A DNA stretch of 64,000 nucleotides from an uncultured Bacteroidota bacterium (GTDB lineage: Bacteria; Bacteroidota; Bacteroidia; 2-12-FULL-35-15): the NCBI GenBank assembly GCA_903847205.1, contig CAINDA010000008.1, forward strand, positions 62,001 to 126,000, in the 5' to 3' direction. Numbering within the stretch: the stretch's first letter is position 1; every line of letters starts with the position of its first letter. The notes under the pieces were generated by a model. It made no database searches. It had not been told where the DNA came from and was given only the letters and a program-made list of their open reading frames with translations. The position numbers and the translations under genes were made by a program. Of this stretch, positions 16,610 through 39,743 are shown in pieces.

Positions 16610-16630
16610 TTTTTACATTTGAAATGAAAA

Positions 16631-17066: not shown

Positions 17067-17082
17067 AAAGTAAAATTTTAAT

Positions 17083-20411: not shown

Positions 20412-20451
20412 AATATTATTTTTAGTTTTTTTGTCCAGCTAGCTGAAGTTT

Positions 20452-23749: not shown

Positions 23750-23877
23750 TCTCCATACATTATTTTCGAGAAATATCCTGAATAATCTATCCCTATCCAC
23801 TCCTTTAAAATAAATATTTTGAACCCATTGCACCTTTGCCCCATCAAATAATAATAACAACTAAAAAAAACAAACTC

Positions 23878-24144
23878 ATGCAAAAAACAGAATTATTACT
23901 CATCATCAACAGCGTCCTTTTAGGAATTATCAGTTTGATGTTTTTAGCGATAGGTTATTTTTTAAAAGACCTGCACAAAGATTTTAAAACACTTATCGAG
24001 CGGGTGAATAAAGTCTATTCCGATTTGTACTCGCACATCAATTCATTTGAAAACATTTCAAAAATGTTTCAAAAACAAATTGACACGCTTGAAAACAGAA
24101 TTGTGGTATTAGAAGGAAAAAAAACAAAAGGCAAAGATGAATAA
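23878..24144 (+). CDS. Small membrane-anchored coiled-coil protein
   Basis: This 88-residue protein has an N-terminal transmembrane helix (residues about 5-27: LLLIINSVLLGIISLMFLAIGYF), then a coiled-coil stretch. The ATG at 23878 is chosen over an upstream TTG. The stop overlaps the next gene by 8 bases. It is the first of a series of membrane proteins in the operon. Its size and topology would fit a small virion membrane protein or a spanin-like protein, which cannot be decided here. Confidence 0.55.
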   Translation: MQKTELLLIINSVLLGIISLMFLAIGYFLKDLHKDFKTLIERVNKVYSDLYSHINSFENISKMFQKQIDTLENRIVVLEGKKTKGKDE

Positions 24145-24607
24145 GCTGACCAAAATATTAATCGGGACTGGTGTTGTTTTGACCGGAGGTTATTTGTTCA
24201 AGATGAGCAGAACATCTGCAAATCTTGAAACAGAAATCAAAGCGATAATTCACAAGTTTGATTTAACCGGTATTACGATTCGTGTGGATGCTAAAATAAA
24301 AAATCCGACAGAAGGAAGTTTAAAAATAAAATATCCTTTTGTGAAACTCTCTTACAAAGGCGAAACGGTGGGCAGTTCACAGGTTGTTAATCAGGATATA
24401 ACCATACCGAAGTTCGGGGAAGCCAACATAGAAGCCATAATGATAAAGATTCCTTTAATGGGTTTATTGTCGGCAGGACTTGATTTATTGACATCCTTAA
24501 AATCAGGTGCAGGAGTAAAAATCGGAATAACAATTATCACAACGATATACACTGCAATCAGTTCTTTCCCCTACGAATATACACAAGAACAAATAGTGAA
24601 AAAATAA
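24137..24607 (+). CDS. Membrane-anchored LEA14-like beta-sandwich protein
   Basis: This 156-residue protein has an N-terminal hydrophobic anchor (residues 4-19), then a domain with DLTGITIRVDAKIKNPT and a later hydrophobic stretch (MGLLSAGLDLL). It recalls LEA14/WHy-type immunoglobulin-like domains. The next gene starts inside its stop codon (TAATG), so translation is coupled. The role is unknown; a structural or membrane-associated part of the putative particle is possible. Confidence 0.55.
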   Translation: MNKLTKILIGTGVVLTGGYLFKMSRTSANLETEIKAIIHKFDLTGITIRVDAKIKNPTEGSLKIKYPFVKLSYKGETVGSSQVVNQDITIPKFGEANIEAIMIKIPLMGLLSAGLDLLTSLKSGAGVKIGITIITTIYTAISSFPYEYTQEQIVKK

Positions 24608-26157
24608 TGGAAGCGAATCACAAACGACAAATCAAAAGCGGTGCAGAGTTTAATCACTTGTTTCCAAAACCCATCGGTGATGAGGTAGAAATTAAACATG
24701 ATGCAGATGTATCAGCAACGGTAGCTTTTATTCCGAAGGTAGTATTTGAAACATTAGGCGATACAAACAGAATAGCAAAACTTTTAAAAGGAAGTACAAT
24801 AAATGAAACGTGTGAGAATATATGGCATTTTGTATATGAGCATATACAGTATGCAAAAGACAAAGATGGTATTGAACAAATTAGAAGACCGGCTCGTGCT
24901 TGGCATGATAGAACACGAGGAGTTGATTGTGATTGTTATACAGTTTTTATCAGCAGCATATTGACCAACCTGCATATTCCGCACATCTACCGAATCACGA
25001 AATATAAAAACAGAGATTATTTCCAACACATTTACCCGATTGTGCCGACCAGTAAAGGAAATTACCTGACGATTGACTGCGTATTAAATGAATATAATCA
25101 AGAAGAACCATACACCGAAAAAAAAGACACACCAATGAAACTACATTATTTAAACGGTATAGATACCAACCAAAACCAATCACTAATGGCAACAGAAAAA
25201 AACGTAGATACCCTTGATTTAATGGGTACAGATGATTTTGACGGAATCGGAAAAATCAATTTAAGCAAACTAAAAGAAGGAGCTAAGAAAGCACTTCATG
25301 TTGTAAATCGTCTAAACCCTGCAACCGGCTTGCTTCGGTTAGGTGTATTAGCTTCGATGAAACTCAATTTGATGAAAATTGCAGGGAATATCCGATATGC
25401 CTATTTAACCGATGCACAGGCTAACGCCAAAGGGTTGGATATTGTTAAACTCAATAAACTGCGAAGCATCTTAACAAAACTGGAAAATGTTTTTTATGGC
25501 GGGGGCGGTTTAAAAGAGAACCTTAAAAAAGCAATCCTTACTGGAAAAGGAAACGCAGACCACGAAGTAAGCGGTTTGGGAATGACTACCGATTCCGAAC
25601 CTTATGATGAGAACACGCCTTTGAATGCTTTATTATCCGGCATTTACGAAGATGAGGCAGTAGAAGGATTGAACGGTTTGGGCTTTGTAACAGCAACAGC
25701 CATAGCAGCCGCTTCAAGTGCATTGGCAATAATTGCAGGGCTTATCAAACAAATCGGAGGTATGAAAAAAGATGGTAAAGATGTACCGGCAGGCGAAGAA
25801 GGTGCTGCATCCGACAGCGTGAATGTTGATGATGCGGGTAGTGCAGCAAGCGGAGGTTCAAAGAAACTAATGAAACTAAATCCGGCTGGAACAAGCGACA
25901 GTACGGATGCAGGAGGCGGAGCTGATACAGGCGGATTTTTAGAAAAAGCAAAAACATGGGTAACAGAGCATCCTATGCAGGCAGGAGCAGCAGCAATTGG
26001 TGTCGCAGTGGTCGGAGTGTTAGCAGTAAAGCACTTTAGTAAAAAGAAACAAAAACCAAAAGGTTTATCGGGTGTATATCACAAGAAACATAAAAAGAAA
26101 AAAGGCAAAAGCAAACCAAAAACAAAACATCACAAAGCTCCAATTGCCCTGCTATAA
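24607..26157 (+). CDS. Transglutaminase-like protein with membrane segments and basic tail
   Basis: This 516-residue protein has an N-terminal region around 75-160 with the Cys/His pattern of a transglutaminase-like cysteine peptidase: RTRGVDCDCYTVFISS (Cys nucleophile), FQHIYPIV (His) and LTIDCVL (Asp). Two hydrophobic segments follow (about 356-382 and 455-475). The last ~40 residues are strongly basic with runs of Lys, as in nucleic-acid-binding proteins. No such protein is known to me in tailed phages. It may process the cell wall or act in the particle interior. Coupled to the preceding gene. Confidence 0.55.
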   Translation: MEANHKRQIKSGAEFNHLFPKPIGDEVEIKHDADVSATVAFIPKVVFETLGDTNRIAKLLKGSTINETCENIWHFVYEHIQYAKDKDGIEQIRRPARAWHDRTRGVDCDCYTVFISSILTNLHIPHIYRITKYKNRDYFQHIYPIVPTSKGNYLTIDCVLNEYNQEEPYTEKKDTPMKLHYLNGIDTNQNQSLMATEKNVDTLDLMGTDDFDGIGKINLSKLKEGAKKALHVVNRLNPATGLLRLGVLASMKLNLMKIAGNIRYAYLTDAQANAKGLDIVKLNKLRSILTKLENVFYGGGGLKENLKKAILTGKGNADHEVSGLGMTTDSEPYDENTPLNALLSGIYEDEAVEGLNGLGFVTATAIAAASSALAIIAGLIKQIGGMKKDGKDVPAGEEGAASDSVNVDDAGSAASGGSKKLMKLNPAGTSDSTDAGGGADTGGFLEKAKTWVTEHPMQAGAAAIGVAVVGVLAVKHFSKKKQKPKGLSGVYHKKHKKKKGKSKPKTKHHKAPIALL

Positions 26158-26190
26158 TCAACGGAATAATAAAAATTAAAAATCAGCAAA

Positions 26191-26829
26191 ATGAAAAGAA
26201 AAAGTAAAAACAAAAGAAAACGTGCTTTGAACGGTACTGATACCGGACATAAAACGACAGCCGCAAAAGTAAAACACAGTGCAATAGAAACTGGCAAAGA
26301 TTTACTTATCGGTGTAATCGGGGGCGGAATTGCCGGAGCTGTTATCGGCAAACCGTCCCTGTTAATTGGTGCAGGTGTAACAGGATACGGACACTTCGCA
26401 AACAAACCAGCACTGACCACATTCGGAATCGGCATGATGGCATCAAGCGGATTCAGCACAGCCGCAGGCACTACTCAAGGGGTTGACGGTTTTAGTGCCG
26501 AAGATGTGAAAGCCCGTGTAATGGGCTTTAAAGACAGCATCACATCAAAATTGTTTTTGGATAAAATAATCAAAAAGAAAGATGCAGCCCCGAAAAAAGA
26601 AAGTACAAACGGTGTTGGTGCAATACAATATTTCACTTACCCCGACCAAAACAAAGAACTGGATTTTTCCGCCCTTGACCATTTAGAAAAACAAATTCAG
26701 CAAAGCGGTGCTGAATACCAAAAAAGTATTCAGGGAACAGAGGAAGAAGAAACAGTACAAGGAAATGATGAAGAAACAATAGAAGGAAATGATGATGAAC
26801 ACGATGATTTTTCAAGCACTTCTTATTAA
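26191..26829 (+). CDS. Glycine-rich membrane protein with acidic tail
   Basis: This 212-residue protein has a basic start (KRKSKNKRKRA), then two glycine-rich hydrophobic stretches (about 34-66 and 68-92: IGVIGGGIAGAVIG, GIGMMASSGFSTAAG). A Glu/Asp-rich tail follows, with repeats of the type (E)TVQGNDEE, TIEGNDDE. Gly-rich membrane proteins of this type occur in membrane-containing phages, but no homology is claimed. The preceding gene ends 33 bases upstream. Confidence 0.5.
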   Translation: MKRKSKNKRKRALNGTDTGHKTTAAKVKHSAIETGKDLLIGVIGGGIAGAVIGKPSLLIGAGVTGYGHFANKPALTTFGIGMMASSGFSTAAGTTQGVDGFSAEDVKARVMGFKDSITSKLFLDKIIKKKDAAPKKESTNGVGAIQYFTYPDQNKELDFSALDHLEKQIQQSGAEYQKSIQGTEEEETVQGNDEETIEGNDDEHDDFSSTSY

Positions 26830-26831
26830 AC

Positions 26832-26859
26832 AGTAAATAGTAAATAGCGAATAGTAAAC
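26832..26859 (+). repeat. Four 7-bp tandem units
   Basis: AGTAAAT, AGTAAAT, AGCGAAT and AGTAAAC lie in tandem in the spacer after the glycine-rich protein gene. They may be a slippage product or a binding site. Confidence 0.6.
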
Positions 26860-26898
26860 AGGAAACCAAATCAATAAAAACCAAATAATTATAAAAAA

Positions 26899-27291
26899 AT
26901 GAACGAAAAAGAACTTTTACCGGAAACAGACCTAACAAAAATGCTATGTGAAAAACTCTTTGGAGACCAAGGATACCTTAACAAAGAATTAGAAAAATAC
27001 AGTCTGAATGAAAAAAAAATACAAGACTGTAATGAGCGAAAAACTAAAGCATTTGAAAATATTGCTGAAAACATTGGAGAGCAGAACGAAGTGCTAAAGC
27101 GAAAAAATGATTTTATTGAGTTCTTTGAATATTTAGTAACAAAATCTACTGACCTCGAAAGCGCGAGAGAACAAAGGGATGCTGCAAGACACAAATTAGA
27201 ATATGCTGACAAAAAAATAAAGAGATTGGCAAGAAAAGTAAAAATAATAAGGAGAGAAAATTTTAAATTAAAAACTCCCTTAAAGGGATAA
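26899..27291 (+). CDS. Coiled-coil protein, 130 residues
   Basis: The protein is almost entirely helical and charged. A long coiled coil begins near residue 60 (NEVLKRKNDFIEFFEYL) and a basic tail ends at KTPLKG. It has no membrane segment and no recognised family. It lies directly before the candidate capsid-type gene; a scaffolding-like role would fit that position but is inference. Confidence 0.5.
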   Translation: MNEKELLPETDLTKMLCEKLFGDQGYLNKELEKYSLNEKKIQDCNERKTKAFENIAENIGEQNEVLKRKNDFIEFFEYLVTKSTDLESAREQRDAARHKLEYADKKIKRLARKVKIIRRENFKLKTPLKG

Positions 27292-27341
27292 GAACAAAAT
27301 CAAATCAATCAATTAATTAATAATCAAAAAAACAAAAAACT

Positions 27342-28067
27342 ATGTTCGGAGAAATCGAAACAATCGAAAACAGCGAGTTCAATAATATCGGAGCCTTATT
27401 AGGTCTTGACGGAGATATTAGCAATGAACTATTGGGAGCTTTAAAAGCATTGCCGCCCATTCGCAGACAAATGGCAATTAATAAAATTACAGCACCGCCA
27501 ATGAACAGCAAAGGTTCACGTGCGGAAATGGAAAAACATTTTCGTGAGTTACCTGCACACATCAAAGCTGAATTGTCGAAAGGCAACCTGCGTTTGGCAG
27601 ATGCGCTGATTTATTCCATCAAGCCGGTAACATCAAGAACAATTAAGATGTTTGAAACACAGGACGATAAAGAAATCGGCTTACGCAACATCTCAAATGC
27701 AAAACTGCCAAAGAACCAAGCATTGCTTGTCAGCGGTATTGTTTTACTGGCAGGTGTTTCATTTAGTGCTTCAAAAGACGATGTCATGGCAACCGCTTAT
27801 GCAAAATTAGAAGACTACCCTGCAATTGCCAACGGTGAAAGCAATTTGAAGGCAAACAAAAAATACATTATGCCGGAAACAAGCAACAACTTTTTTAAAA
27901 CGCTTGGTTTAAGTACCGTTCCGGTTGGTTATTACAAATTGTCAAACCCCCGCTTAATTCAGGATGATATTCAAATTGAGTTCACCGTTGAATTAGGAAC
28001 AATGGCAGGCATTGCAGCCAACACGCAATTGTTTGTCGGCTTACACGGAACTATTACAACACCCTAA
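27342..28067 (+). CDS. Candidate major structural (capsid-type) protein
   Basis: This 241-residue protein has a helical N-terminal third and a beta-rich remainder: NQALLVSGIVLLAGVSF, then YKLSNPRLIQDDIQIEF, and TQLFVGLHGTITTP at the end. No known capsid family is recognised by eye. The case is contextual: it lies in the middle of an operon with membrane proteins, small beta-rich proteins and a cell-wall hydrolase. It is followed by a hairpin that could set a separate high transcript level, as is common for major virion genes. A non-viral function remains possible. Confidence 0.4.
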   Translation: MFGEIETIENSEFNNIGALLGLDGDISNELLGALKALPPIRRQMAINKITAPPMNSKGSRAEMEKHFRELPAHIKAELSKGNLRLADALIYSIKPVTSRTIKMFETQDDKEIGLRNISNAKLPKNQALLVSGIVLLAGVSFSASKDDVMATAYAKLEDYPAIANGESNLKANKKYIMPETSNNFFKTLGLSTVPVGYYKLSNPRLIQDDIQIEFTVELGTMAGIAANTQLFVGLHGTITTP

Positions 28068-28090
28068 TTAAAAACAAATTCCTTTTAAAG

Positions 28091-28113
28091 CCTCCCCATT
28101 CGGGGAGGTTTTA
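28091..28113 (+). terminator. Hairpin after the candidate structural gene
   Basis: CCTCCCC-ATTC-GGGGAGG is a strong stem followed by TTTTA. The T-tract is short, so it may be a partial terminator or an mRNA-stabilising hairpin inside the operon. Confidence 0.65.
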
Positions 28114-28135
28114 CAGGATTTAAAAAATTAAAACA

Positions 28136-28510
28136 ATGGACACATTAGAAAAACGCATAGGAGATTTACAGATAACAGTCCAGGGACAAATCGCAAAAGG
28201 AAAATTCGAGCTGGATAAAACAGTAAAGATTATCAAAGGAATTAAACTTACTTCCGACCGTGAAGAACTGCTGTATTTTCGAGGAGCGCAGCGGATTGTC
28301 ATAAACGGTAAAGAACGTTATGAGGAAAATTACGAGAGCAAAAATTTTCAATCCACTACCAACGTGGATGTAAACACCCGCTATAAAGACATGCGCAATT
28401 TAGCTCCGGGAAATGGTATCATCGAAATTGATTATACGGATCACGCTCATCCCCTTACAACTTTTGCCCCTTACCTCGTAAGCCTTTATGTTGAATATGA
28501 AATTGAATAA
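28136..28510 (+). CDS. Small beta-rich protein, structural paralogue 1
   Basis: This 124-residue, nearly all-beta protein aligns with the next gene product: FELDKTVKIIKGIKL against FQIKLPRNAKKITGIL, then VINGKE against LIKDGKE, and similar last strands (YLVSLYVEYE against YQIKIYIRYE). The pair looks like a duplicated single beta-sandwich or jelly-roll domain. In this context the proteins could be minor capsid or spike proteins. No database family is assigned. Confidence 0.5.
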   Translation: MDTLEKRIGDLQITVQGQIAKGKFELDKTVKIIKGIKLTSDREELLYFRGAQRIVINGKERYEENYESKNFQSTTNVDVNTRYKDMRNLAPGNGIIEIDYTDHAHPLTTFAPYLVSLYVEYEIE

Positions 28511-28515
28511 TCAAG

Positions 28516-28989
28516 ATGAACGAAAATTATCACATACACACATTGGCGGTAAACAATTCCGGAGAGAAAAAACTCTTTCAGATTAAACTGCCGAGAAATG
28601 CAAAAAAAATTACAGGGATTTTAATTACAGAAACATCGGTTAATCCAAATTTCAGCCCTCCGAGTGTTTTAATAAAAGACGGCAAAGAATATTTTGCGCT
28701 CAAAGCAGGGAGCATCAGCCTTAAACTTCACAATCCAAAAGATATTTTTTTTGCGGAAGATGTAATTGCCTCTGAAATCATGCCGGACTATGAAACATTA
28801 ACCGGCATAAACAAAATTGGTTTCGATGGCGGAAGTTTTAATACAATGGGAAATCCAATGGAATACCGTAAAGTAAACATAGAGAGCAAAGAAACCATAA
28901 TTGAGGGATATTATGCGGACACCATGCTTGTTAATGAGCTTATACCTTATCAGATAAAAATTTACATACGCTACGAAACTGAACAATGA
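28516..28989 (+). CDS. Small beta-rich protein, structural paralogue 2
   Basis: This 157-residue protein is predicted mostly beta, with the alignment described for its neighbour plus a longer middle part (NKIGFDGGSFNTMG). It starts 5 bases after the preceding gene and its stop overlaps the next start (ATGA). Tight packing of three small beta-rich genes suggests that the products assemble in fixed ratio. Confidence 0.5.
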   Translation: MNENYHIHTLAVNNSGEKKLFQIKLPRNAKKITGILITETSVNPNFSPPSVLIKDGKEYFALKAGSISLKLHNPKDIFFAEDVIASEIMPDYETLTGINKIGFDGGSFNTMGNPMEYRKVNIESKETIIEGYYADTMLVNELIPYQIKIYIRYETEQ

Positions 28990-29306
28990 CACCTGAAATA
29001 GCCACCTTCCTGATACCACGCAATATGCGTGAATTAGGGTACGAAGAGAAAGATTATATCGCAAAGTACGATGATATTGTATGTAAGGCTTCAGCAAGCA
29101 TAGCCATTAAAGGAGATGCCGAGTTTTTTTATCTCATCGGAGAACCGCTTGGCGTAACCATATCCTCCGTCTTTGGTGTTTATGATTTAAGCGATACAGG
29201 TATCAACAAACAACAGCATATTCATCAGGGAAAAATAATCCTTCAAAATAATACACTGCAAACAATGCAGATTAAATTCATTCATGTAATACCTAAAAAT
29301 AAATAA
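28986..29306 (+). CDS. Small beta-rich protein, 106 residues
   Basis: Third small beta-type product, coupled to the previous gene by a 4-base overlap. Features are FLIPRNMRELG near the start, FFYLIGEPLGVTISSVFGVY in the middle, and a final amphipathic strand (TMQIKFIHVIPK). No family recognised. It may belong to the same structural set. Confidence 0.5.
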   Translation: MTPEIATFLIPRNMRELGYEEKDYIAKYDDIVCKASASIAIKGDAEFFYLIGEPLGVTISSVFGVYDLSDTGINKQQHIHQGKIILQNNTLQTMQIKFIHVIPKNK

Positions 29307-29308
29307 TC

Positions 29309-30136
29309 ATGCCGTACATCACCGAAAAATACAGCGAACAAAAAATTGAAAACCTGTACAATTTTTTACAGAGTGCCAAAGAACAAGGCGACCCCGAAGA
29401 CTATGAAATATTTGTAGATGCTTTTAAAGTGGTTAAACGAACCAACGATTTAACACGTTTTGAAGGCTACACTAATTTCATTCAGCCGGAAACAAAAGAG
29501 CTAAAAATCATTATTTACGATGGAACATCACCACGCAATACCAAACACGTTTTTACACTCAAAGAAGATAACAAGAATAGTTTAAGCGGTGTGGAAGTGG
29601 AAACACGCATTGATGAAAAACTTCGTGTAGAAAAAGAGAGATGGGAAACCGACCTTTTAAAAAAGGAAAATGAAAAGTTAAAAACTGAATTAGCCGATGC
29701 GGAAGCCTACATAGACCAATTGGAAGAAGATGCAGAGAAAGCCAAAGACAAAAAATTCAGATTGGGTGATGTGAATGTTGGTGAATTTGCATCAGTTATG
29801 CTTGAAGGTATCGTAAGAAGAAATCCGCAGATGTTAGCCAAGCTCCCCGGAGGTGTAGCATTAGCAGGTGCGATTGAACAAGATAATACTGAAAGAGAAA
29901 ATGCTCTTACCGAAAAAACACCTGAACCCGAAGTAAGTTTTAAAAAGAAAACAAGCTCAACCGAACCTGAATTAAGCGATGAAGATAAAAACTATTTGGC
30001 TTTTATCAAATCACTCAAAAATAAATTCGACCATGAACAAATGACAAGTATATTTCTGATTTTGGATTTACTTGTTAACCATCCTGCTGACATAGAGCCT
30101 GCCATCCAGTATTTAACCGACTTACATAAAAAATAA
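29309..30136 (+). CDS. Coiled-coil protein, 275 residues
   Basis: Acidic and helical, with a long coiled coil at about residues 105-155 (LLKKENEKLKTELADAEAYI). A glycine-containing short segment follows (LPGGVALAGAIEQ), then a helical C-terminal part (LAFIKSLKNKFD). No membrane segment. It begins 2 bases after the preceding stop, so it is in the same operon. Function unknown. Confidence 0.5.
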   Translation: MPYITEKYSEQKIENLYNFLQSAKEQGDPEDYEIFVDAFKVVKRTNDLTRFEGYTNFIQPETKELKIIIYDGTSPRNTKHVFTLKEDNKNSLSGVEVETRIDEKLRVEKERWETDLLKKENEKLKTELADAEAYIDQLEEDAEKAKDKKFRLGDVNVGEFASVMLEGIVRRNPQMLAKLPGGVALAGAIEQDNTERENALTEKTPEPEVSFKKKTSSTEPELSDEDKNYLAFIKSLKNKFDHEQMTSIFLILDLLVNHPADIEPAIQYLTDLHKK

Positions 30137-30142
30137 AACACC

Positions 30143-30319
30143 ATGAAAAAATACACTTACGATTTTACCATCCCAGCCTTCACAGAAGATGAAGCCGATG
30201 CAAAAGTAACTGCACTTAAAATGTTAGCAATAAAGCTAACGGCAACAGAGTTGACGAAGCTCGCACTCGTTGTAGAAAAAGACCCGATTAAAACAGCATT
30301 GGCAAAAAAACTGCTTTAG
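30143..30319 (+). CDS. Small protein, 58 residues
   Basis: Begins MKKYTYDFTIPAFTEDEADA and ends ALAKKLL. It starts 6 bases after the preceding stop and fits the operon's spacing. The sequence is balanced alpha/beta with no stop or compositional oddity, so it is likely expressed. No family recognised. Confidence 0.6.
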   Translation: MKKYTYDFTIPAFTEDEADAKVTALKMLAIKLTATELTKLALVVEKDPIKTALAKKLL

Positions 30320-30368
30320 GAGTATAGCGTTATAGACGCTTTTTATAACAAGCATTATTCAAACAACA

Positions 30369-31337
30369 ATGGAAAACAAAGACAGTATAAAAAATAAGCT
30401 ACTCGACTATGGAGTGAAAGCGGTATTGCTTGGAGGTGCGGTATATGGGCTTCATGCGCTCTATCAGCAATATCAAAAAGACCATACCGAGCAGCAGGTA
30501 GAACAAAAACCCGAAGTAGGTCAGGCGATGGCTCTTTATTCTGCAATGAATCCAAGCGGTATGGAATGGATGAGAAAATTTGACGGCACAAATACCGAAG
30601 CAGTTTTTGCTACTGCAAATGAAATCAGCGACCTGAATAAAGTAATGGCAGCTTACAAACAATTGTATAACTCCAGTTTACTCGATGATTTACGCCAAGA
30701 GTTAAGCCCTGATGATTATACCAAATTTTTAAACACGCTCAAATTCAGCCCGACTAATACGAATAAAGGCACGGATAATAAACCAAAAAATAATTTTATA
30801 AACGGTACGCCCCTTATCACCAAGCTGAAAAGCAATCTTCGCAGAACACCGCAGAACATCAGCCATTTCAGTTTAAACAGCAACATTATCAAATTAGCAG
30901 ATGCAGGAAAACTAATTGGTTTTGCTACCGGCAAATCACAATTTGACAATGGCAGCGGTACAGGAGTAGGAACATTGTTTATCGAAATAAAATCAATTGC
31001 ATTGGATACCAGTAAGCCGGTTACCTTTTGGATAGCAGCAAGCCAGTTACAAGCTATCAGCAAAGCTGATTATACGGCTCGTAAATACCCTTTCTTTTTT
31101 GTAAATGAGAAAGATACACTAAGCGGTATTGATGGTTATAACCAGCGTGTCATTGCTTTTCAATCCGCACCTGTAATGGATGAAAAATTTAAAATGATTG
31201 GCATTGCGGCTCCCCATCAAGTTTTGGGTTACTCCATAATGGAGCTGAATGACAAGAAAGGCAATGAATACATAAAATTCATTACCAATCAGAGGAAACA
31301 GCATTGGGTAAATAAAAAGTTTGTTAAAGTGATTTAA
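30369..31337 (+). CDS. Membrane-anchored protein with beta-rich domain, 322 residues
   Basis: An N-terminal transmembrane helix (about residues 14-30: GVKAVLLGGAVYGLHAL) is followed by a helical region, then a beta-rich domain from residue ~150 (LITKLKSNLRRTP, GTLFIEIKSIAL, VTFWIAASQL). The C-terminal part looks globular and soluble. The position before the hydrolase suggests a virion- or membrane-associated role. No family recognised. Confidence 0.5.
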   Translation: MENKDSIKNKLLDYGVKAVLLGGAVYGLHALYQQYQKDHTEQQVEQKPEVGQAMALYSAMNPSGMEWMRKFDGTNTEAVFATANEISDLNKVMAAYKQLYNSSLLDDLRQELSPDDYTKFLNTLKFSPTNTNKGTDNKPKNNFINGTPLITKLKSNLRRTPQNISHFSLNSNIIKLADAGKLIGFATGKSQFDNGSGTGVGTLFIEIKSIALDTSKPVTFWIAASQLQAISKADYTARKYPFFFVNEKDTLSGIDGYNQRVIAFQSAPVMDEKFKMIGIAAPHQVLGYSIMELNDKKGNEYIKFITNQRKQHWVNKKFVKVI

Positions 31338-31392
31338 CACACACGCAAAGCGTGTTTTTTAATGATGTACTAAACGGAAATAATTAAACAAA

Positions 31393-31950
31393 ATGACAAA
31401 AGAAGAATTTGTAAAAACCTACTATTCATTGGCAGAAAATGCAGGTAAAAAATTTAATCTTAATCCAACCGTGATACTTGCACAGGGAGCGCACGAATCA
31501 GGATGGGGTAGTTCGTATGCTGCAAGAATTCGGAAAAACTTTTTTGGAATCCTTGCGGCAGGCAGTCCAAATGTATATTGGGATGGTTCAAAAAGCGCAT
31601 CACAGACCAATCCGAATTTAGTGTTCAGGATTTACAAAACAGAACAAGACAGCTTTATGGACTTTGCCCGATTGATTAGTATGAATTACAAATCAGCAGC
31701 AGCCGTGAGTAATGACAGCACACAATATGCAAAAGCCATTGCATACAGTCCTTACATATCAGAACAAAATGGAGATAACCGCCCGCTTTACCAAAGTGCT
31801 ATTATCTCTAATTCCAGCTACATAGACAGTATGGCTGACCTGTTAAAAAAAAAGTGGTTGCACATAAAACAGGAATTGCAGGGGGCTTGGCTTCACTCGT
31901 CATTTCAGGCATTGCATACTATAACAGGGAAAAGATTATCAATTATTTAA
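31393..31950 (+). CDS. Glucosaminidase (glycoside hydrolase family 73 type), zero-frame product
   Basis: This 185-residue peptidoglycan hydrolase would cleave beta-N-acetylglucosaminyl bonds. The family pattern is clear: LNPTVILAQGAHESGWGSSYAARI carries the catalytic Glu (AHESGWG), then NFFGI, and YKTEQDSFMDFARLI. After residue ~153 the zero frame passes through A9 and continues with an unconvincing basic tail. The -1 frame from the same point encodes a good membrane helix (see 31848-31964). It is probably the lysis or cell-entry enzyme of the element. Confidence 0.85.
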   Translation: MTKEEFVKTYYSLAENAGKKFNLNPTVILAQGAHESGWGSSYAARIRKNFFGILAAGSPNVYWDGSKSASQTNPNLVFRIYKTEQDSFMDFARLISMNYKSAAAVSNDSTQYAKAIAYSPYISEQNGDNRPLYQSAIISNSSYIDSMADLLKKKWLHIKQELQGAWLHSSFQALHTITGKRLSII

Positions 31951-31964
31951 AAAAGAAGCTGTAA
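31848..31964 (+). promoter_or_regulatory. -1 programmed frameshift site with C-terminal membrane extension
   Basis: The slippery heptamer A-AAA-AAG lies at 31848-31854 within A9. A -1 slip opens a 36-codon frame ending at 31964 with a hydrophobic helix (GIAGGLASLVISGIAYY) and a basic end (KIINYLKKKL). The zero-frame tail has no such quality. So the hydrolase may exist in soluble and membrane-anchored forms. Transcriptional slippage or a one-base sequencing error would look the same. Confidence 0.6.
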
Positions 31965-31984
31965 TTAAAAAGAATAAAACGCAA

Positions 31985-34900
31985 ATGAAAACAATGGATA
32001 CTATTCAGCTTTTTGTTATGCGCATCGAAACCGATTTAATTGCAAAGATTAAGCATAACAAATTATCAGTTGAAAAATTAGCGGCTTCATTCGGCATCAC
32101 CGATAAGACGGAAGTAAAAGAATTTACCGAATTAGCAATTGTAAATCGTGCAAGAAAAATAGCGCATTCAGGAAACGATGTTTATACCAATTACTTTGAT
32201 ATTGTTGATTTGTATAACCACCAAGTAAATTTATCACACCGTACAAGTCAAAGTATTTTATTACAGCAATACTCAACACCTGCACCGATAGGCTATTTAG
32301 CAGGTATCTTTTGCGGTATAGATAAATTTGATAATGCAGAAAATGGTTATGTTGGTTTTGAACCAAGTGCAGGAAACGGTTTACTGACAATAGCTGCCAA
32401 GCCTGAAAATTTTATCGTGAATGAAATTGATGATACACGAAATATCAATCTGCAATCACAGGGATATAAAGCGGTTTACAAAGTGGATGCTACCGAAGCA
32501 TTTAATAAAAGCATCAGTTTTAAATTTCATAAAACTTTTAATGCAATTATCACTAACCCGCCCTTCGGCAATTTAGACAGAGCAATACCCTATGATAATT
32601 TTCAATTCAAAACACTCGACCATGTTATGGCTCTGCGTGCATTGGACACAATGGCAAACAATGGTAAAGCTGCAATCATAATAGGCGGTCATACGCAATG
32701 GGATGAGAAAGGCAGAATACAGGCAGGTAAAAACCGCATCTTCTTTAACTACCTGTACAGCCATTACAACGTAGTTGATGTTATCAATATTGACGGACAT
32801 AAATTATACTCAAGGCAAGGCACAGCATTTAATGTCCGCCTGATTTTAATTGATGGTAGAAAAATAAAAGTACAGGGAGCTGCACCAATATTTAATAATG
32901 AAGTTGATGTAATAGTAAAATCATTTGAAGAATTATACGAGCGAGTAACAGAAAATATTTTATCAGATACAGCCATGAGAAATAAAAATATAAACGAATA
33001 CGAATTAGAAGCACAGGCATTAGAATTGGAACTTGAATTAATGCAAGGGGACGGATTAGGCGCACCATATATGCCTGCATCGGAAAGCTGTGTTGTATTA
33101 GATACGGTTGTGCCGGATTCAATGGATTATGAAACGCACAGTGCAGTGAAACGGATTAAAGAAGCCGTAGGTGGTGATATAGATGCGTTTGTAAAACAGC
33201 GGTTAAAATACCGCACAAGTATAGAGTTGTGTAAGTCTTTATCTGCCGAACAAACAGATGCAGTTGCAATGGCAATCTATAACATTGAGGTACGCAAGCA
33301 GGGAATGATTATTGGCGACCAGACAGGAATCGGTAAAGGTCGTATTGCAGCCGCAATGATACGCTACGCAGTCAATCAGGGACATCAGCCGATTTTCATT
33401 ACAGAGAAAGCAAATTTATTTTCCGACCTGTACCGTGATTTAACTGCAATCGGCTCAAGTCATTTAGTGCCTTTCATTGTGAATGGCAAGGAAAGCAAAA
33501 CCGATATTAAAGATGAGCAGGGAAACATTATTTATCAGGCATTACCGCCAACGGAACAAAACGCAATTTTTAAAGATAAAAAAGTTCCTAAGAAATTCGA
33601 TTTTGTTTTAGCTACTTATTCCCAATTCAACTCTCCCGAAAAGAAACCTGAAAAGCCAAGTTTTATATCTGCCATTGCAAGCGATAACATTCTCATAATG
33701 GATGAAAGCCACAATTCAAGCGGTTCAAGCAATACAGGCGAATATATGCAGGCGGTGTTAGCAAAAACAAAAGGCGTTGTTTTCTTATCGGCAACATTTG
33801 CCAAGCGACCTGATAATATGCCGGTGTACGCAATGAAAACATCTATCAGCGATGCGAACATGAGCAAGGAAGAATTAGTTGAAGCGATAACCAAAGGCGG
33901 TGTTGCATTACAGGAAGTGTTGGCATCACAGCTTGTGGAAGAAGGACAGATGTTAAGACGTGAGCGTTCCTTTGAAGGTGTGGAAGTAAATTATATTACA
34001 CTCGATGCAAAAGAACAGGAACACAAAGCCATTGCCGATAACATCACCAGTATTTTAAGAGATGTAATTGGTTTTCAAAAAAACTTTGTAGATGAAGAAG
34101 TGGAAGAACTCGACAAGATAGCTGTTGCGGAAGGAAAAGAAACACAGGTACGCAAAGGCACATCAGAGGCAGGCGTGAGCAATCAACCGTATTTCTCGAA
34201 AGTATTTAATGTGATTAATCAAATGCTTTTCAGTATCAAAGCCGAAGCGGTAGCGGACAGAGCCATTGAACGATTGAAAGAAGGTAAGAAGCCGGTTATT
34301 GCATTTGCCTCCACAATGGGCAGTTTTATTGAGCAAATGGAAAACGAACACGGTATGCCTGTAAAAGATGGCGATACTATTAACGCAGATTTTTCAGAAG
34401 TGTTAATGCGTGGATTAGATGGTGTATTGCGCTATACCGAAAAAGATGTGAATGGAGAAAGTATCTACAAACAATTCAATATTGCGGAATTATCACCCGA
34501 AGCAAAAACGGAATATATCCGCATCACCGAAAAAATAAAATCCGTTTCCACCGGAATTACCATATCGCCAATAGATGTGATTATACAAAAATTAGAAAAG
34601 GCAGGTTACAGCGTAGCTGAAGTAACAGGCAGAAAATATGGTGTGCAGTTGAATTTAAAAACAAATCAGGGTTTGGTATTGGCGAGAAAAAAATTAAATA
34701 CAAACGATGCGTTCCGAAAATTTAATAACAACGAAGTAGATGTATTAATGATTAACCAATCAGGCAGTACAGGCGCATCGGCACACGCTATTGTAACGTC
34801 CAAAGTACCAAAGGAAGAAGTAAGGCAGCGTGTAATGATAGTATTACAAGCCGAGTTAGATATTAATACCGAAGTTCAAAAACGTGGTCGTATCAACCGT

Positions 34901-36700
34901 ACCGGACAAATATTAAAACCGATTTACGATTATGTAAACTCATCCATACCTGCCGAAAAGCGTTTGATGATGATGCTTCAAAAGAAATTAAAATCATTGG
35001 ATGCAAACACCAGTTCAAATCAAAAACAAAGCACCAAGATTTTAGATGTGCCGGATTTCCTGAATAAATACGGTGATAAAATCGTAACGGAATATCTTTC
35101 TGAAAATCCTGAAATAAATACTTTATTGAACGACCCATTGAAATTGGACGATACCAGTAATGAAGATGCGAACTCAACAGAGGATGCAGCGCATAAAGTA
35201 TCGGGGCGTGTAGCGGTGCTTTCAACCAAGATGCAGCAGGATTTTTACAATGAAATTGCCGAACGCTATATTGATTTTATTGATTACTTAAAACAATCAG
35301 GCGAATATGATTTAGAAGTGGAAGCAATGAATTTAGAAGCAGAGCTTATCAGTCATTCTGTTATCAAGGTTGGCAAAGGCGGTGAGAGCGCATTTGGTGA
35401 GGACAGCATTTTAGAAACTGTAAAAGCGAATGTATTAAAAAAGCCATTCACAAAAATTGAATTGGAAAATATTATTACTGAATCATTAAGCGGAAAAGAT
35501 TTTAAAATCCTGCAAGCTGAAAGTATTGCAGACTTTGAGAGCTTTGTTGCAAAGCGTTTAAAAGATGAGATTATAGAGAACGAAGAAAAATACGCTGCGC
35601 TGATTAAGAATGTACCGAATGAAAAGAAGGTTCTGAAAATATTGGAAAAAGAAGGAGAAGGCGCATACCAAGCTGAAATAAAAAAGCGTGAGAAAATATT
35701 AAAGGATGCTGAAATAGCCTCTATTGCTCAAATAGAAAAGGTAACGGCTAACCGCAATCAATACACGGAAGGCTTATTAAAATTCTTTCATGTAAGCAGG
35801 AAATTAAATTATCCGGTACAATCTTACGATGGCGGACATGAAACCGTATTGGGTGTGTTCGTGGGGTTTATCATTGATAAGAAAAAGAAAAATCCCTATG
35901 CGCCAAGTGCTATGAAATTGCGCTTCGCAATTGCCAATAGCAATAAATACATTGCTATACCTGCAAGTTACAACAAGGACGTGATGGCAATTAAAGGCGA
36001 GAGCGTAGGTATTAACGATAAGGGTTTAGCTGATACACTAAACCAATGGGAAACGGCAGTAAAAAATGGTACGGCAGACAGAAAAATACGCCACATCATT
36101 ACCGGAAATTTATTACAAGCCTTTAGTGATTACAAAGGGAAATTAGTCAGCTACACCACGATTGATGGAGCAACTAAAAAAGGTATTCTCATGCCGGATA
36201 ACTGGCTACCATCGGAAGAAACAAAAGGAAAAGTAAATGTGCCAATTGGTAAAGCATTAAAGATTATTTCTTCGTTAGGTATTGGCAGTTCTATTAATTC
36301 CAATAATGGTGTTGGCATTATCCGCCAGTCAAATAATTACAAAATTATTGTGCCTGCATCTCGTCAGCGTGGCGGTGCGTTTTATTTAGATACCGATATT
36401 TTACCGCTTGTAGAAAACAGAAAGTTTGAAAAATTAGCAGATAAAATGGTGGCGTTAATGGATTTAAAACACATCGACAAATTGGTGGAGGTACTGCAAA
36501 GCAAACACGGCAGCAATGTTACATTAAGCGCAACTCAATTTGACATTATTAAAAAAGATATACCGCAAGGGCAGGCAAGAGAGCGCAAACCTTTACAGAA
36601 AGCTATAATCATACACGAAGAAAATATCGAGCCGGATTACAAAGAACTGGAATTGGAAGCTATGGCACTTGAACTGGAATTAGAACTAATGGAATTTTGA
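31985..36700 (+). CDS. Methylase-helicase fusion (Strawberry-notch/DarB-like)
   Basis: This 1571-residue protein has an N-terminal N6-methylase-like domain with SAM motif VGFEPSAGNGLL (near residue 120) and catalytic motif TNPPFGN (near 184). An SF2 helicase of the Strawberry-notch type follows: Walker A DQTGIGKGR (near 445), MDESHNSSG (near 575) and QKRGRINRTGQ (near 965). Phage P1 DarB has a comparable methylase-helicase layout, travels in the virion and protects against type I restriction. A similar antirestriction role here is inference. A short Glu/Leu motif occurs three times. It is the largest gene of the operon. Confidence 0.8.
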   Translation: MKTMDTIQLFVMRIETDLIAKIKHNKLSVEKLAASFGITDKTEVKEFTELAIVNRARKIAHSGNDVYTNYFDIVDLYNHQVNLSHRTSQSILLQQYSTPAPIGYLAGIFCGIDKFDNAENGYVGFEPSAGNGLLTIAAKPENFIVNEIDDTRNINLQSQGYKAVYKVDATEAFNKSISFKFHKTFNAIITNPPFGNLDRAIPYDNFQFKTLDHVMALRALDTMANNGKAAIIIGGHTQWDEKGRIQAGKNRIFFNYLYSHYNVVDVINIDGHKLYSRQGTAFNVRLILIDGRKIKVQGAAPIFNNEVDVIVKSFEELYERVTENILSDTAMRNKNINEYELEAQALELELELMQGDGLGAPYMPASESCVVLDTVVPDSMDYETHSAVKRIKEAVGGDIDAFVKQRLKYRTSIELCKSLSAEQTDAVAMAIYNIEVRKQGMIIGDQTGIGKGRIAAAMIRYAVNQGHQPIFITEKANLFSDLYRDLTAIGSSHLVPFIVNGKESKTDIKDEQGNIIYQALPPTEQNAIFKDKKVPKKFDFVLATYSQFNSPEKKPEKPSFISAIASDNILIMDESHNSSGSSNTGEYMQAVLAKTKGVVFLSATFAKRPDNMPVYAMKTSISDANMSKEELVEAITKGGVALQEVLASQLVEEGQMLRRERSFEGVEVNYITLDAKEQEHKAIADNITSILRDVIGFQKNFVDEEVEELDKIAVAEGKETQVRKGTSEAGVSNQPYFSKVFNVINQMLFSIKAEAVADRAIERLKEGKKPVIAFASTMGSFIEQMENEHGMPVKDGDTINADFSEVLMRGLDGVLRYTEKDVNGESIYKQFNIAELSPEAKTEYIRITEKIKSVSTGITISPIDVIIQKLEKAGYSVAEVTGRKYGVQLNLKTNQGLVLARKKLNTNDAFRKFNNNEVDVLMINQSGSTGASAHAIVTSKVPKEEVRQRVMIVLQAELDINTEVQKRGRINRTGQILKPIYDYVNSSIPAEKRLMMMLQKKLKSLDANTSSNQKQSTKILDVPDFLNKYGDKIVTEYLSENPEINTLLNDPLKLDDTSNEDANSTEDAAHKVSGRVAVLSTKMQQDFYNEIAERYIDFIDYLKQSGEYDLEVEAMNLEAELISHSVIKVGKGGESAFGEDSILETVKANVLKKPFTKIELENIITESLSGKDFKILQAESIADFESFVAKRLKDEIIENEEKYAALIKNVPNEKKVLKILEKEGEGAYQAEIKKREKILKDAEIASIAQIEKVTANRNQYTEGLLKFFHVSRKLNYPVQSYDGGHETVLGVFVGFIIDKKKKNPYAPSAMKLRFAIANSNKYIAIPASYNKDVMAIKGESVGINDKGLADTLNQWETAVKNGTADRKIRHIITGNLLQAFSDYKGKLVSYTTIDGATKKGILMPDNWLPSEETKGKVNVPIGKALKIISSLGIGSSINSNNGVGIIRQSNNYKIIVPASRQRGGAFYLDTDILPLVENRKFEKLADKMVALMDLKHIDKLVEVLQSKHGSNVTLSATQFDIIKKDIPQGQARERKPLQKAIIIHEENIEPDYKELELEAMALELELELMEF

Positions 36701-36740
36701 GGCAGAGCCTCTTTTATTAAAACAAAAAAAATTTAAAACT

Positions 36741-38222
36741 ATGATAACCGCAAACAATTATTACAATCAAATCAACAGCATTGGCGCAAACCAATTACCG
36801 CCAACGCTTTTAAAGAGCCACGAGTTAGTAAACAAAGTAACTCAGGAAGGTGCAAGTTGGGAAACCTATAACGGTAATACTGCAATCAAACGCATGATTG
36901 ATTTGTATTTAACCAAGCTCAACGAGTATGTGGAGCAAAAGAAACCAAAACAAAAGGCGGTAAGTCCAGGAAACAGCGAAACTGTTAAACATGAAAAAAA
37001 ACAGCATTCGGCAAAACCTCACAAAGAGCCGAAAGTAAAGGCTGTGAAGCCAAAAAAAATTGATACGGCAACACAGGTAGAACATATTGAAGATGAATTA
37101 AAATTTATCAAACGCTTTATTTTGCTGAATGGAAAAACAAAATCTGCCGAGCAGGTATTAGGCTTTTTAAACAGCTTACAAAAAGCAATTATCGAAAAAC
37201 GTATTCGCAAATCTTCACCCTATGCCGATGAAATAAAAATCATTCAGGAAAAATTAGTGCAGACCTATAACGCAATGAATACAAGTATTCAAATCCAGTT
37301 AAAGCCTGAAACAATGGAGAAAATGATTAAGCTCGTTAAGAGTGAAAAAGTAATGCCCTCTGTAAAATTCATAAAACGCTATGTGAGTTTACAAGGCAAA
37401 ACAGGCATAAAAGATAAAGCAAAAAAATTATTTGATGATATGCAGAAAGCTGTTAAGCAAGGGCATTTAACAAAATCAGATAAGTATGCAGATAAAGTAA
37501 ACGTGATGTATTTGAGCTTACATAATTTGTTATTCAAGCCGAAACAAAACGATGCTCTTGCCATATCCAAACATGAATTAAATGGATTGTTAGGTATTCT
37601 TAACGGTTGTGGTTGTCATGGATTAGACGGTGTTGAGAATGAACAAGCACCAGTAGTAACAAAACAAAATAAAATTATGAATAGCGTTGATTTTGCAAAG
37701 ATGCAATTTGATAGCATCGGATTTTCCGGCAAATGGTTAGATTTTATCGGGGATCCGGCAAAAGGATTTACTGCTATGGTATTTGGTAAACCTAAAATGG
37801 GTAAATCTTATGTGTGTATTGATTTTGCCGGATACCTTGCACGCAATCATGGGAAAGTTTTGTACGTTGCCAAAGAGGAAAGGCTCGATGCTACACTTCA
37901 AAAAAAATTGAACGATACCAATGTAAAGCATCCTAATTTATTTGTGAGCGATTTTCTGCCGGAGAATTTATCAGAATATAATTTTGTATTCATTGACAGC
38001 GTGAATAAAATGGAGCTTCTGCCGAATGATTTAGATGCTTTAAAAACGAAGAATCCGGGTGTGTCATTCATTTATGTATTTCAAACCACCAAAGAGGGAA
38101 ATTTCAGAGGCTCTAACCATTTTCAGCATGATGTTGATGTGGTTATTGAAGTTCCTGAAAAGGGTAAGGCGGTTCAAAATGGCAGATTTAATCAGGGTGG
38201 GGAGATGCAGATTTTTGAGTAA
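36741..38222 (+). CDS. RecA/KaiC-like ATPase with duplicated N-terminal module
   Basis: This 493-residue protein has a C-terminal P-loop domain with Walker A FGKPKMGKSY (near residue 350), a likely Walker B FVFIDSVNKM (near 416) and a final beta region. It is like RecA/KaiC-fold ATPases. The N-terminal half holds two copies of a ~60-residue module (about 128-186 and 210-268) with FIKR, GKT, QKA, KS and YAD in the same order. It could be a replicative or packaging ATPase, but it lacks FtsK/HerA features that I can see. Confidence 0.65.
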   Translation: MITANNYYNQINSIGANQLPPTLLKSHELVNKVTQEGASWETYNGNTAIKRMIDLYLTKLNEYVEQKKPKQKAVSPGNSETVKHEKKQHSAKPHKEPKVKAVKPKKIDTATQVEHIEDELKFIKRFILLNGKTKSAEQVLGFLNSLQKAIIEKRIRKSSPYADEIKIIQEKLVQTYNAMNTSIQIQLKPETMEKMIKLVKSEKVMPSVKFIKRYVSLQGKTGIKDKAKKLFDDMQKAVKQGHLTKSDKYADKVNVMYLSLHNLLFKPKQNDALAISKHELNGLLGILNGCGCHGLDGVENEQAPVVTKQNKIMNSVDFAKMQFDSIGFSGKWLDFIGDPAKGFTAMVFGKPKMGKSYVCIDFAGYLARNHGKVLYVAKEERLDATLQKKLNDTNVKHPNLFVSDFLPENLSEYNFVFIDSVNKMELLPNDLDALKTKNPGVSFIYVFQTTKEGNFRGSNHFQHDVDVVIEVPEKGKAVQNGRFNQGGEMQIFE

Positions 38223-38270
38223 AAACAGAATAATTAATTTTTAAATAATAACGTCATATAAAAACAAAAA

Positions 38271-38873
38271 ATGGAAACCGAAAACATGAACACGCAAAAT
38301 TTGGAAAAAATAATTTTTCCGAGAAAGTTTGGCTATTCTGCCAAAGAGCAAAGAAAGAAAGATATTCTTTCAATTCTTTTTAGCCCAAATAATTTTTTAT
38401 TGGGCAGCAGGGACACAGATATAATTCGCATGATATTGATTGAAGATAAAAATTTGAAGGAGATTGGGGATAAATTTAATCTTACGCCTACAACAATAAG
38501 CCACATCTTTAACCGAGCTATCAGAAGAATAAATTTTCGTTACGCTACAATTAATGAACAGTTGGAGAATGCAGTTAATATGCAGGAAGAAATAAGGTTT
38601 CTCACAAAAAAATTGCGGCAATATGAAAATGAAAATATAATTGCCTCTTTGCCTTTGGAAACAAAAGAAATCTTATACAAGGGTATAAAAGAATTTAACT
38701 TTTCTGTCCGTGCGATAAACACTTTCAAGGCAGCCAGAATTGATACGCTTGCCGACCTCGTGAAATTTTCTAAGAGAGATTTATTAAGATTTAGGAACGT
38801 GGGGAAAGTAACCGTTATAGAAATAAACGAATTCTTAAAATCAAAAGGTCTGAGTTGGGAAATGAAAATGTAA
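38271..38873 (+). CDS. Sigma region 4-like / alpha-CTD-like transcription regulator
   Basis: This 200-residue protein has a helix-turn-helix of sigma-4 type (residues about 43-85: LKEIGDKFNLTPTTISHIFNRAIRRI), then a coiled linker. A C-terminal helix-hairpin-helix region follows (about 145-195: IDTLADLVKFSKRDLLRFRNVGK) resembling the RNA polymerase alpha C-terminal domain. Such a fusion could bridge polymerase to specific promoters, for example a late-gene activator. It ends the long operon and is followed by a strong terminator. Confidence 0.65.
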   Translation: METENMNTQNLEKIIFPRKFGYSAKEQRKKDILSILFSPNNFLLGSRDTDIIRMILIEDKNLKEIGDKFNLTPTTISHIFNRAIRRINFRYATINEQLENAVNMQEEIRFLTKKLRQYENENIIASLPLETKEILYKGIKEFNFSVRAINTFKAARIDTLADLVKFSKRDLLRFRNVGKVTVIEINEFLKSKGLSWEMKM

Positions 38874-38895
38874 GGCGATACAGATATTCTAAAAT

Positions 38896-38924
38896 AAAAA
38901 AGGTCGAAATTTTCGACCTTTTTT
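38896..38924 (+). terminator. Terminator of the 15.7-kb operon
   Basis: AGGTCGAAA and TTTTCGACCT form a perfect stem flanked by A6 and T6. A diverged copy of this hairpin and its surroundings lies at 43806-43880. Confidence 0.85.
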
Positions 38925-38985
38925 ATTTGCCATTAATTTTAAAATACGGATATTTACATAGACTACTGTGTAATAGGTAAAAATC

Positions 38986-39738
38986 ATGGAACATAAACAG
39001 ATAATAGGGCTTGAGAAAAAAGAAATTGAGAATATTTCGGGGAAGGGTATTTCTTTTAAAAACATTAGAATACCTAACGAGGATTGTTCATTTTTTATCA
39101 TACGCTATGAAATAGTAAATCAAGTAAACAATAGTAAATTTAGTAGTCCTATTAACCTATTTCCCAGTATCTATCAAAGGGATGTTTCGCAAGTTACTTT
39201 GTCTAAATCTATTCTGATACCTGATGATTGTAAAATATATATACAAATAGAGCCTATATTAAAAAAGGAATTTAAAGGAACAGTTTTTATAGATTATGAA
39301 GTTTTCATGCCGGATATTAAACTGAAAAATAAACCAGGAATGAAAGTTTTTATTAATGAATCTGATAGACAAAATGCTTATAGAATTGCCCTAACAAATT
39401 TAGCACGCTTTTTTGGTATTCCGAATTGGGAATATGAGGACAATAAAACACTTTATGGTAAAATAAAAGAGGTTAATGACCCAATTATAGATTTATTAAA
39501 AAAATATTTTAAAGCATATAATGAATGGTTTGGATTTTATGCAAGAATAAAAGAGGAAGAAACTAAAACAGGTCAGGAGCGTGATTTAACTAAGGAAGAA
39601 AGGAATGAACTTGCGGGGTTAATTAAAAATCGGGATAGTACTTTAAATGCGCTACAAACAAAATTTGATGAATTACAATTTGATAGATTCAAAAAATCAC
39701 ATGGTCTCGGCAATATTGATGGAATAATACAGGAATAA
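38986..39738 (+). CDS. Hypothetical protein, 250 residues
   Basis: The N-terminal half is beta-rich (FFIIRYEIVNQVN, KIYIQIEPIL). The C-terminal half is helical and highly charged (DLTKEERNELAGLIK). No signal peptide or recognised family. The next gene starts 5 bases downstream, so they are probably one two-gene unit placed after the operon terminator. Likely cargo. Confidence 0.55.
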   Translation: MEHKQIIGLEKKEIENISGKGISFKNIRIPNEDCSFFIIRYEIVNQVNNSKFSSPINLFPSIYQRDVSQVTLSKSILIPDDCKIYIQIEPILKKEFKGTVFIDYEVFMPDIKLKNKPGMKVFINESDRQNAYRIALTNLARFFGIPNWEYEDNKTLYGKIKEVNDPIIDLLKKYFKAYNEWFGFYARIKEEETKTGQERDLTKEERNELAGLIKNRDSTLNALQTKFDELQFDRFKKSHGLGNIDGIIQE

Positions 39739-39743
39739 TTATT

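Follow-up and report, generated by a model that had tools for sequence, protein, structure and literature searches.

Probable programmed −1 recoding of a lysin gene in a virus-like element of Bacteroidota, with predicted soluble and membrane-anchored products

Introduction

Genes for polymerases, transposases and phage tail assembly are well-known cases of recoding. In dnaX it proceeds by ribosomal −1 frameshifting in Escherichia coli and by RNA-polymerase slippage in Thermus, and the shift leads to a shorter polymerase subunit. Here we analyze the glucosaminidase gene (the lysin gene) of a virus-like element from an uncultured Bacteroidota bacterium. The gene lies in a stretch of 64,000 nucleotides (GenBank assembly GCA_903847205.1, contig CAINDA010000008.1, positions 62,001 to 126,000 of the forward strand), which as a whole is called the window and within which all coordinates are counted. 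The lysin gene is similar to dnaX (PMC5009743) in having an A-rich slip site by which one gene would give two products. In contrast to dnaX, the shift in the window gene would add a membrane anchor to a lytic enzyme. The nearest logical parallel is the GP gene of Ebola virus, for which PMC5009743 describes slippage that selects between a soluble and a transmembrane form; it is a parallel in logic only, as the virus, the gene and the polymerase are unrelated.

The closest lytic enzyme is P14 (CDS14) of Flavobacterium phage FLiP, a structural lytic protein of the virion that is predicted to assist entry (PMC7654751). In P14 a muralytic domain is followed by a hydrophobic segment at the C-terminus, with a basic end, an arrangement that the window lysin would acquire only after a frameshift. 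However, P14 has an SLT domain and carries its tail in frame, whereas the window lysin has a PF01832 domain and a predicted tail in the −1 frame. The 16 proteins of FLiP gave no match at E ≤ 1 to forward-strand open reading frames (ORFs) of the window or of loci L013, L158 and L020. Where the Finnlakeviridae have a double jelly roll, the putative capsid protein encoded from 27342 is modelled as a single one, with a predicted local distance difference test (pLDDT) score of 71. The modelled fold of this and of a second capsid-like protein resembles that of SPV1, HHIV-2, SH1 and P23-77, which are membrane-containing viruses with single jelly-roll proteins. These viruses have other hosts, and the likeness is a weak structural match from a comparison of structures, not of sequences.

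Based on the comparisons below, we assign a probability of about 0.8 to the programmed recoding of this glucosaminidase gene at a run of nine A (A9), giving a soluble and an anchored lysin, with polymerase slippage as the likelier mechanism. An original prediction had proposed that a −1 frameshift gives the enzyme a membrane tail; it is strongly supported by homologous genes, 29 of which are all in the −1 state.

The lysin gene and its two reading frames

Three features define the recoding site:

31393..31950, + strand: zero-frame ORF of the glucosaminidase, 185 amino acids, the predicted soluble product; a PF01832 domain, followed by 31 unconserved codons past the A run
31845..31853, + strand: A9 run, the putative slip site, read from the sequence; the next base is G31854
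31854..31964, + strand: −1-frame tail of 36 codons plus stop, comprising a hydrophobic helix and an end rich in Lys; identified from sequence, codon-position pattern and hydrophobicity

The product of 31393-31950 matches PF01832 over residues 13-138 (E 2.6e-17, 64.1 bits against a curated cut-off of 30.2). This is the sole Pfam family in the window lysin, and an SLT domain was not found. The run holds the heptamer A_AAA_AAG at 31848-31854 in the zero-frame register (TTA AAA AAA AAG TGG), which has the X_XXY_YYZ pattern and lies exactly where it had been predicted. Past the run, the zero frame continues for 31 further codons to TAA at 31948-31950. The −1 frame runs from GTG at 31854 to CTG at 31959-31961 and is closed by TAA at 31962-31964; its 36 codons give the tail VVAHKTGIAGGLASLVISGIAYYNREKIINYLKKKL, which has the hydrophobic (putative transmembrane) helix and the Lys-rich end ascribed to it at the outset. 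The helix is called from hydrophobicity on the Kyte-Doolittle scale, with a 17-residue window and a threshold of at least 1.1, and not by a dedicated predictor. The tail scores 1.5 in the window and 1.14-2.79 over the 29 genes described below. It had also been claimed that the zero frame loses quality at the run. This agrees with the end of the PF01832 match at residue 138 and with the nearest homologue (L004, 84% identical in the domain), whose zero frame stops directly after the run.

An A9 run is by itself unremarkable, as coding-strand A9 occurs in five other window ORFs of at least 100 amino acids. The site stands beyond chance because the −1 tail is conserved in 29 genes of the family. 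In the related loci L009-L034, 23 of the 24 coding-strand runs of at least nine A fall in the lysin gene.

Conservation of the −1-frame tail

Homologues of the lysin were searched for in the window's own genome, 36 genomes of its order, 395 genomes of its class, a genome-contig collection and viral contigs. Matches were found in 4/36 genomes of the order at E ≤ 1e-6 and in 13/395 genomes of the class at E ≤ 1e-20 (own genome included in both counts), and at 39 loci of the genome-contig collection; the viral-contig scans yielded few close relatives. A profile search over the collected loci at E ≤ 1e-15 gave 48 distinct homologous domains, the window's included; the distant homologues L002, L003 and L006 did not pass this cut and were left out. 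A hydrophobic tail follows in the −1 frame in 29 of the 48 and in frame in three (L110, L112, L045). One domain, L111 with A9G, is cut by a contig end, and 15 have neither form of tail (8 from Tannerellaceae, 1 from Porphyromonadaceae, 3 from Succinivibrionaceae and 3 others); L042 is tallied among these 15 despite a hydrophobic zero-frame end. It should be mentioned that the counts over the 29 are of genes and not of events, near copies (L021, L022, L026, L027) being included.

The run with its next base is A9G in 21 of the 29 genes, A10T in six, A10G in one and A6G in one, so that 28/29 have A9-A10, the exception being L008. A hydrophobic tail is present in the −1 frame in all 29, in the zero frame in one (L007) and in the +1 frame in none. 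After the run the zero frame ends within a median of 9 codons (range 0-31).

Substitutions in the tail were compared by codon position. Between the window and L004 there are 25 differences in the 108-base tail, distributed 4/1/20 over the −1-frame codon positions (p 2.3e-6), and this pattern arises although L004 has a zero-frame stop immediately behind the run. Summed over the three sequences of the window's group, the differences are 23/9/59. Among 12 in-register pairs, 8 gave p<0.05 and the other four, most with few differences, did not; these p values are uncorrected and come from overlapping pairs, and two of 14 pairs (both with L007) were one codon out of register and were excluded, L007 being judged by the three-sequence sum. 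As judged from these differences, the evolution of the tail tracks the −1 frame. We consider it very likely that the −1 recoding is real and selected.

Slippage by RNA polymerase or by the ribosome

The run starts at codon position 1 in 19/29 genes and at position 3 in 10/29. Its register differs even between rows paired on the tree, namely L018/L034 and L005/L007 (support 98/85 for both). Nine of the position-3 genes have A9-A10, and in every one of them the run opens with the third base of a codon (TTA, ATA, GTA, GCA), which the heptamer alone does not require. A long homopolymer kept regardless of codon register is what is expected of transcriptional slippage. Since run length is kept while register changes, RNA-polymerase slippage is favored over ribosomal −1 frameshifting, short of proof, and we regard it as probably the main route, with appreciable room for doubt. 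The canonical ribosomal heptamer of the original prediction is thus present, but it is perhaps not the feature under selection, as a run length of 9-10 is kept in both registers.

The first alternative is that ribosomal −1 frameshifting on A_AAA_AAG or A_AAA_AAA, as in E. coli dnaX, is the main route. The window heptamer belongs to the strong E. coli type (PMC5009743). However, the run is longer than a heptamer needs in 28/29 genes, and 19/29 have the weaker A_AAA_AAA register. The sequence after the run was folded for 24/29 genes one by one against mononucleotide shuffles, and six genes were refolded against 200 dinucleotide shuffles (for L014, L034 and L018 the refolded stretch began some bases 3′ of the run). 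In the window no stem was found in the 60 bases downstream (z 0.66, 149/200 shuffles as good), and no stem shared among the 24 folded genes was seen by eye, a comparison made without a covariance or pseudoknot test. On dinucleotide refolding only L008 (z −2.60, 2/200 shuffles as good) and L004 (z −2.14, 5/200) stood out.

Several observations weigh against polymerase slippage as the main route. A heptamer, either A_AAA_AAA or A_AAA_AAG, is in register in every run length, so ribosomal slippage is possible throughout, and A at the third codon position is common in such AT-rich genes. With mononucleotide shuffles, z ≤ −2 was obtained in 6/24 genes (L004, L008, L108, L014, L017, L025). L008, which has only A6G, carries a hairpin a few bases downstream, which fits ribosomal shifting. 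For this A6G homologue ribosomal shifting is the likelier route, and this sole frameshift homologue with a short run (L008/L033) may represent a switch from polymerase to ribosomal slippage. The transfer RNAs (tRNAs) leave the mechanism undecided. The host of the window has both Lys tRNAs, UUU and CUU, and presence of the Lys-CUU tRNA would weaken ribosomal shifting by an argument given in PMC5009743. A DNA search with the CUU gene in 12 other genomes found CUU in none but G139, a genome without a frameshift copy, and elsewhere Lys-UUU or unrelated tRNAs; because this search was a close-range one and does not settle the other genomes, the tRNA argument does not discriminate between the two mechanisms. 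On balance we judge the ribosome unlikely to be the main route of the family, and polymerase slippage is retained as the preferred one.

In-frame relatives and the membrane anchor

On the tree, the 29 frameshifted genes, the three in-frame genes and the cut row form one virus-type group (support 82/99, drawn open). The in-frame pair L110/L112 adjoins a frameshifted clade (96/86), and the placement of L045 is unsure owing to its long branch. All three keep the hydrophobic end in frame without a long A run, as does the viral contig L009, which is too distant for the E ≤ 1e-15 cut. L112 is found in the same capsid block (L160) as the frameshifted genes; for L110 (L159) only a homologue of the 30369 gene was found. 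In L192 the corresponding position is taken by an SLT enzyme whose hydrophobic C-terminus is in frame. L005, which pairs with L007, has a quite different tail that is nevertheless in the −1 frame. Homologues encoding the tail in frame had been named in advance as evidence that would speak against a frameshift; those that exist are the few divergent ones without a long A run (L110, L112, L045, L009). Judging from these in-frame sequences, enzymes that end in a hydrophobic segment are real products, and in the window gene the shift is still needed to make one.

The same relatives weigh on the other side in a further respect. As they do without a frameshift, the soluble product of the others may be a by-product. 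The anchor itself is not found everywhere, since no frame encodes one near the ends of L198 (GH108) and its look-alike L199, and the Persicobacter (pPP10) amidase likewise lacks one. L042, a Tannerellaceae gene outside the virus-type group, has an A8 run with a hydrophobic zero-frame end (1.89). It may represent a fusion with the small hydrophobic ORF that is seen in its relatives.

In a second alternative, the anchored form alone is of use; the A run would then be a lesion that is tolerated thanks to slippage, and the soluble form a by-product. Three to four relatives have the in-frame anchor without a long run, and the zero-frame ends are short and mutually dissimilar. However, a lesion should be repaired frequently, yet 29 genes retain the run and in-frame forms are few on the tree. 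The zero frame also ends soon after the run in most genes, as if termination were wanted. We find this alternative improbable beside a programmed recoding that gives both forms.

Alternative origins of the −1 frame

The −1 ORF could instead be a small gene of its own, for a membrane protein such as a holin, with translation starting in the region of the run. An ATG, GTG or TTG is found somewhere in the −1 ORF in 13/29 genes, including the window with its GTG right after the run, and by eye a separate small hydrophobic ORF follows or overlaps some homologues outside the virus-type group (L020, L040, L041, L120). However, all three start codons are absent from the entire −1 ORF in 16/29, which makes a separate protein unlikely in those genes, and several of the 13 have one only within the hydrophobic stretch. 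In 14/29 genes the −1 frame is closed by a stop that overlaps the 5′ edge of the run, and it can therefore be entered only inside the run there. In addition, the helix is fused in frame to the enzyme in the relatives without a run. Such a protein is very improbable.

The −1 state is uniform in 29/29 genes, which come from many assemblies, and both assembly error and phase variation are therefore unlikely. Phase variation at the DNA level would treat the run as a contingency tract toggling the tail. A9 runs are mutable in general, but A10 is found only where the neighboring bases keep the tail in −1, and this explanation has hardly any probability left. A sequencing or assembly error, with a true run of A10, would be plausible for an error-prone homopolymer, but it can practically be set aside because 29 distinct genes share this state; they stem from many assemblies, vary in run length and between two registers, and have several tails that are unlike one another.

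Gene context of the lysin

The lysin is the last gene of a conserved block that also holds the genes at 24607, 27342, 28136, 28516, 28986, 29309 and 30369. The features discussed here, with the next gene downstream, are as follows:

24607..26157, + strand: conserved block gene with a weak transglutaminase-like match (PF04473, E 4.7e-4, 20.1 bits, just below the cut-off of 20.5)
27342..28067, + strand: putative capsid protein, a single jelly roll in its AlphaFold2 model (pLDDT 71); best VIA match SPV1 6oj0_A
28136..28510, + strand: second putative jelly-roll protein (model pLDDT 84); best VIA matches SPV1 (Z 8.2) and HHIV-2 (Z 8.1)
30369..31337, + strand: adjacent conserved gene with a hydrophobic N-terminus, directly upstream of the lysin; its homologues lie just upstream of the lysin in relatives
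31985..36700, + strand: strawberry-notch-type helicase (PF13872, PF13871), the next gene downstream; homologues in L009, L010, L011, L158 and L197

The 24607 gene is present in 18 of the 26 loci L009-L034. The model of the 27342 protein aligns to SPV1 6oj0_A with Z 9.2 over 149 residues and a root-mean-square deviation of 3.5, and the 28136 protein has a profile overlap with the family of 28516-28989. Other capsid rows are mostly at Z 6.5-8, while the non-viral folds listed with them score up to 7.3 and 7.7. With Z values barely above those of unrelated folds and middling model confidence, a tailless virus-like element is therefore what we infer by reasoning.

The 27342 capsid-like protein is encoded upstream in 25/29 frameshift genes, the window included. 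Among the other four, L028 and L031 are on short contigs with a homologue of the 30369 gene, L019 has almost no upstream sequence, and L005 (= L013) lies in another small element. In 12/15 tail-less homologues examined (10 of them also by profile), the capsid block was found in none, with only 1.0-1.5 kb of upstream sequence available for L044 and L046; L118, L120 and L121 were left out of this comparison. L020 and L035 have a sigma-like gene in common with the window (38271).

In the window the virus-like element spans about 23836-40436, mainly 24607-38222, with the predicted jelly-roll proteins, the strawberry-notch helicase and an ATPase (phrog_6891). Its block recurs in other Bacteroidota genomes and metagenome-assembled genomes, and in part on the Persicobacter plasmid pPP10 (53 kb). 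In a plasmid collection, two Persicobacter psychrovividus records match the 27342 protein. pPP10 has an amidase, and no lysin match was found on 16.7 kb of it. Phage record collections gave no match to the lysin, to the 27342 and 30369 proteins or to a 250-amino-acid protein of L013. In a further 395 genomes of the phylum, the capsid-like protein was found in three, the own genome included; the other two, G142 and G049, have other lytic enzymes.

The element of L013 (G001:C81, about 115-8500) is small and distinct from that of the window, and it holds a copy of this lysin that is likewise frameshifted but has another tail. Its genes include a replication-initiator-like gene (phrog_20614), a single-strand-binding protein gene (phrog_44) and one with a weak terminase-like match.

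Proposed roles of the two products

In the mechanism that we propose, normal expression would stop in the zero frame and give a soluble enzyme, while a fraction of expression would move to the −1 frame within the run and provide this enzyme with a membrane anchor at its C-terminus. The RNA polymerase most likely slips on the A9/A10 tract, adding one A (or dropping two), and ribosomal −1 slippage on A_AAA_AAG/A may contribute. The anchored form would most likely reside in the viral or the host membrane as an entry enzyme, as is thought of FLiP P14, and the soluble form would most likely serve lysis. The original prediction had likewise proposed two products for lysis and entry. Its idea gains from FLiP, a virion lytic protein with an in-frame hydrophobic end, while the separate roles are what we infer; a soluble form for exit and an anchored form for entry seems to us an evenly balanced proposition.

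A broader scenario is put forward tentatively, with the odds somewhat against it. Undescribed, widespread tailless single-jelly-roll viruses of Bacteroidota may make both an exit enzyme (soluble) and an entry enzyme (anchored in the virion membrane) from one lysin gene by RNA-polymerase slippage. An unrelated small replicon (L005/L013) would have acquired the slip module and exchanged its tail, retaining the run, the −1 frame and the membrane helix, and the L008 lineage would have switched to a ribosomal signal. If the recoding itself is as proposed, both passages of a virus through peptidoglycan would be solved by one gene. The 29 natural variants, with several run lengths, two registers and A6G, would together with the in-frame forms be a test set for polymerase versus ribosomal slippage in Bacteroidota.

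Recoding, soluble/membrane pairs made by slippage, and virion lysins that end in a hydrophobic segment are all known separately; their combination appears to be new. Among the literature matches listed for recoding and lytic enzymes, we found no phage lytic enzyme that gains a membrane tail by recoding, and no earlier report of a phage-like element in which recoding sets how much lytic enzyme is soluble and how much is membrane-anchored; a possibly relevant paper on the SPP1 genome (PMC6316719) is outside that scope. Annotation frame by frame misses the anchor, and with it a probable virion protein.

Minor observations

Within the element region of the window, the ORF at 26899-27291 also has an A9 run, near 27011; the close relatives L010 and L011 have no coding run of at least nine A outside the lysin. 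The homologue of the 30369 gene in L161 (8444-9357) is split over two overlapping frames, either by an error or at another recoding site. A relative of the element, L197, has an amidase gene at 12292-12798 (PF01510, 26.1 bits against 26) and, at 7559-7954 on the − strand, a gene for a small protein that has a hydrophobic segment at its N-terminus and is lysozyme-like by eye, with no Pfam family above cut-off. Elsewhere in the window, at 14785-21188, there is a family of 66-base AT-rich repeats, some of them 11 bases apart, close to a short repeat of the end of the SRAP gene (17082 and 21190).
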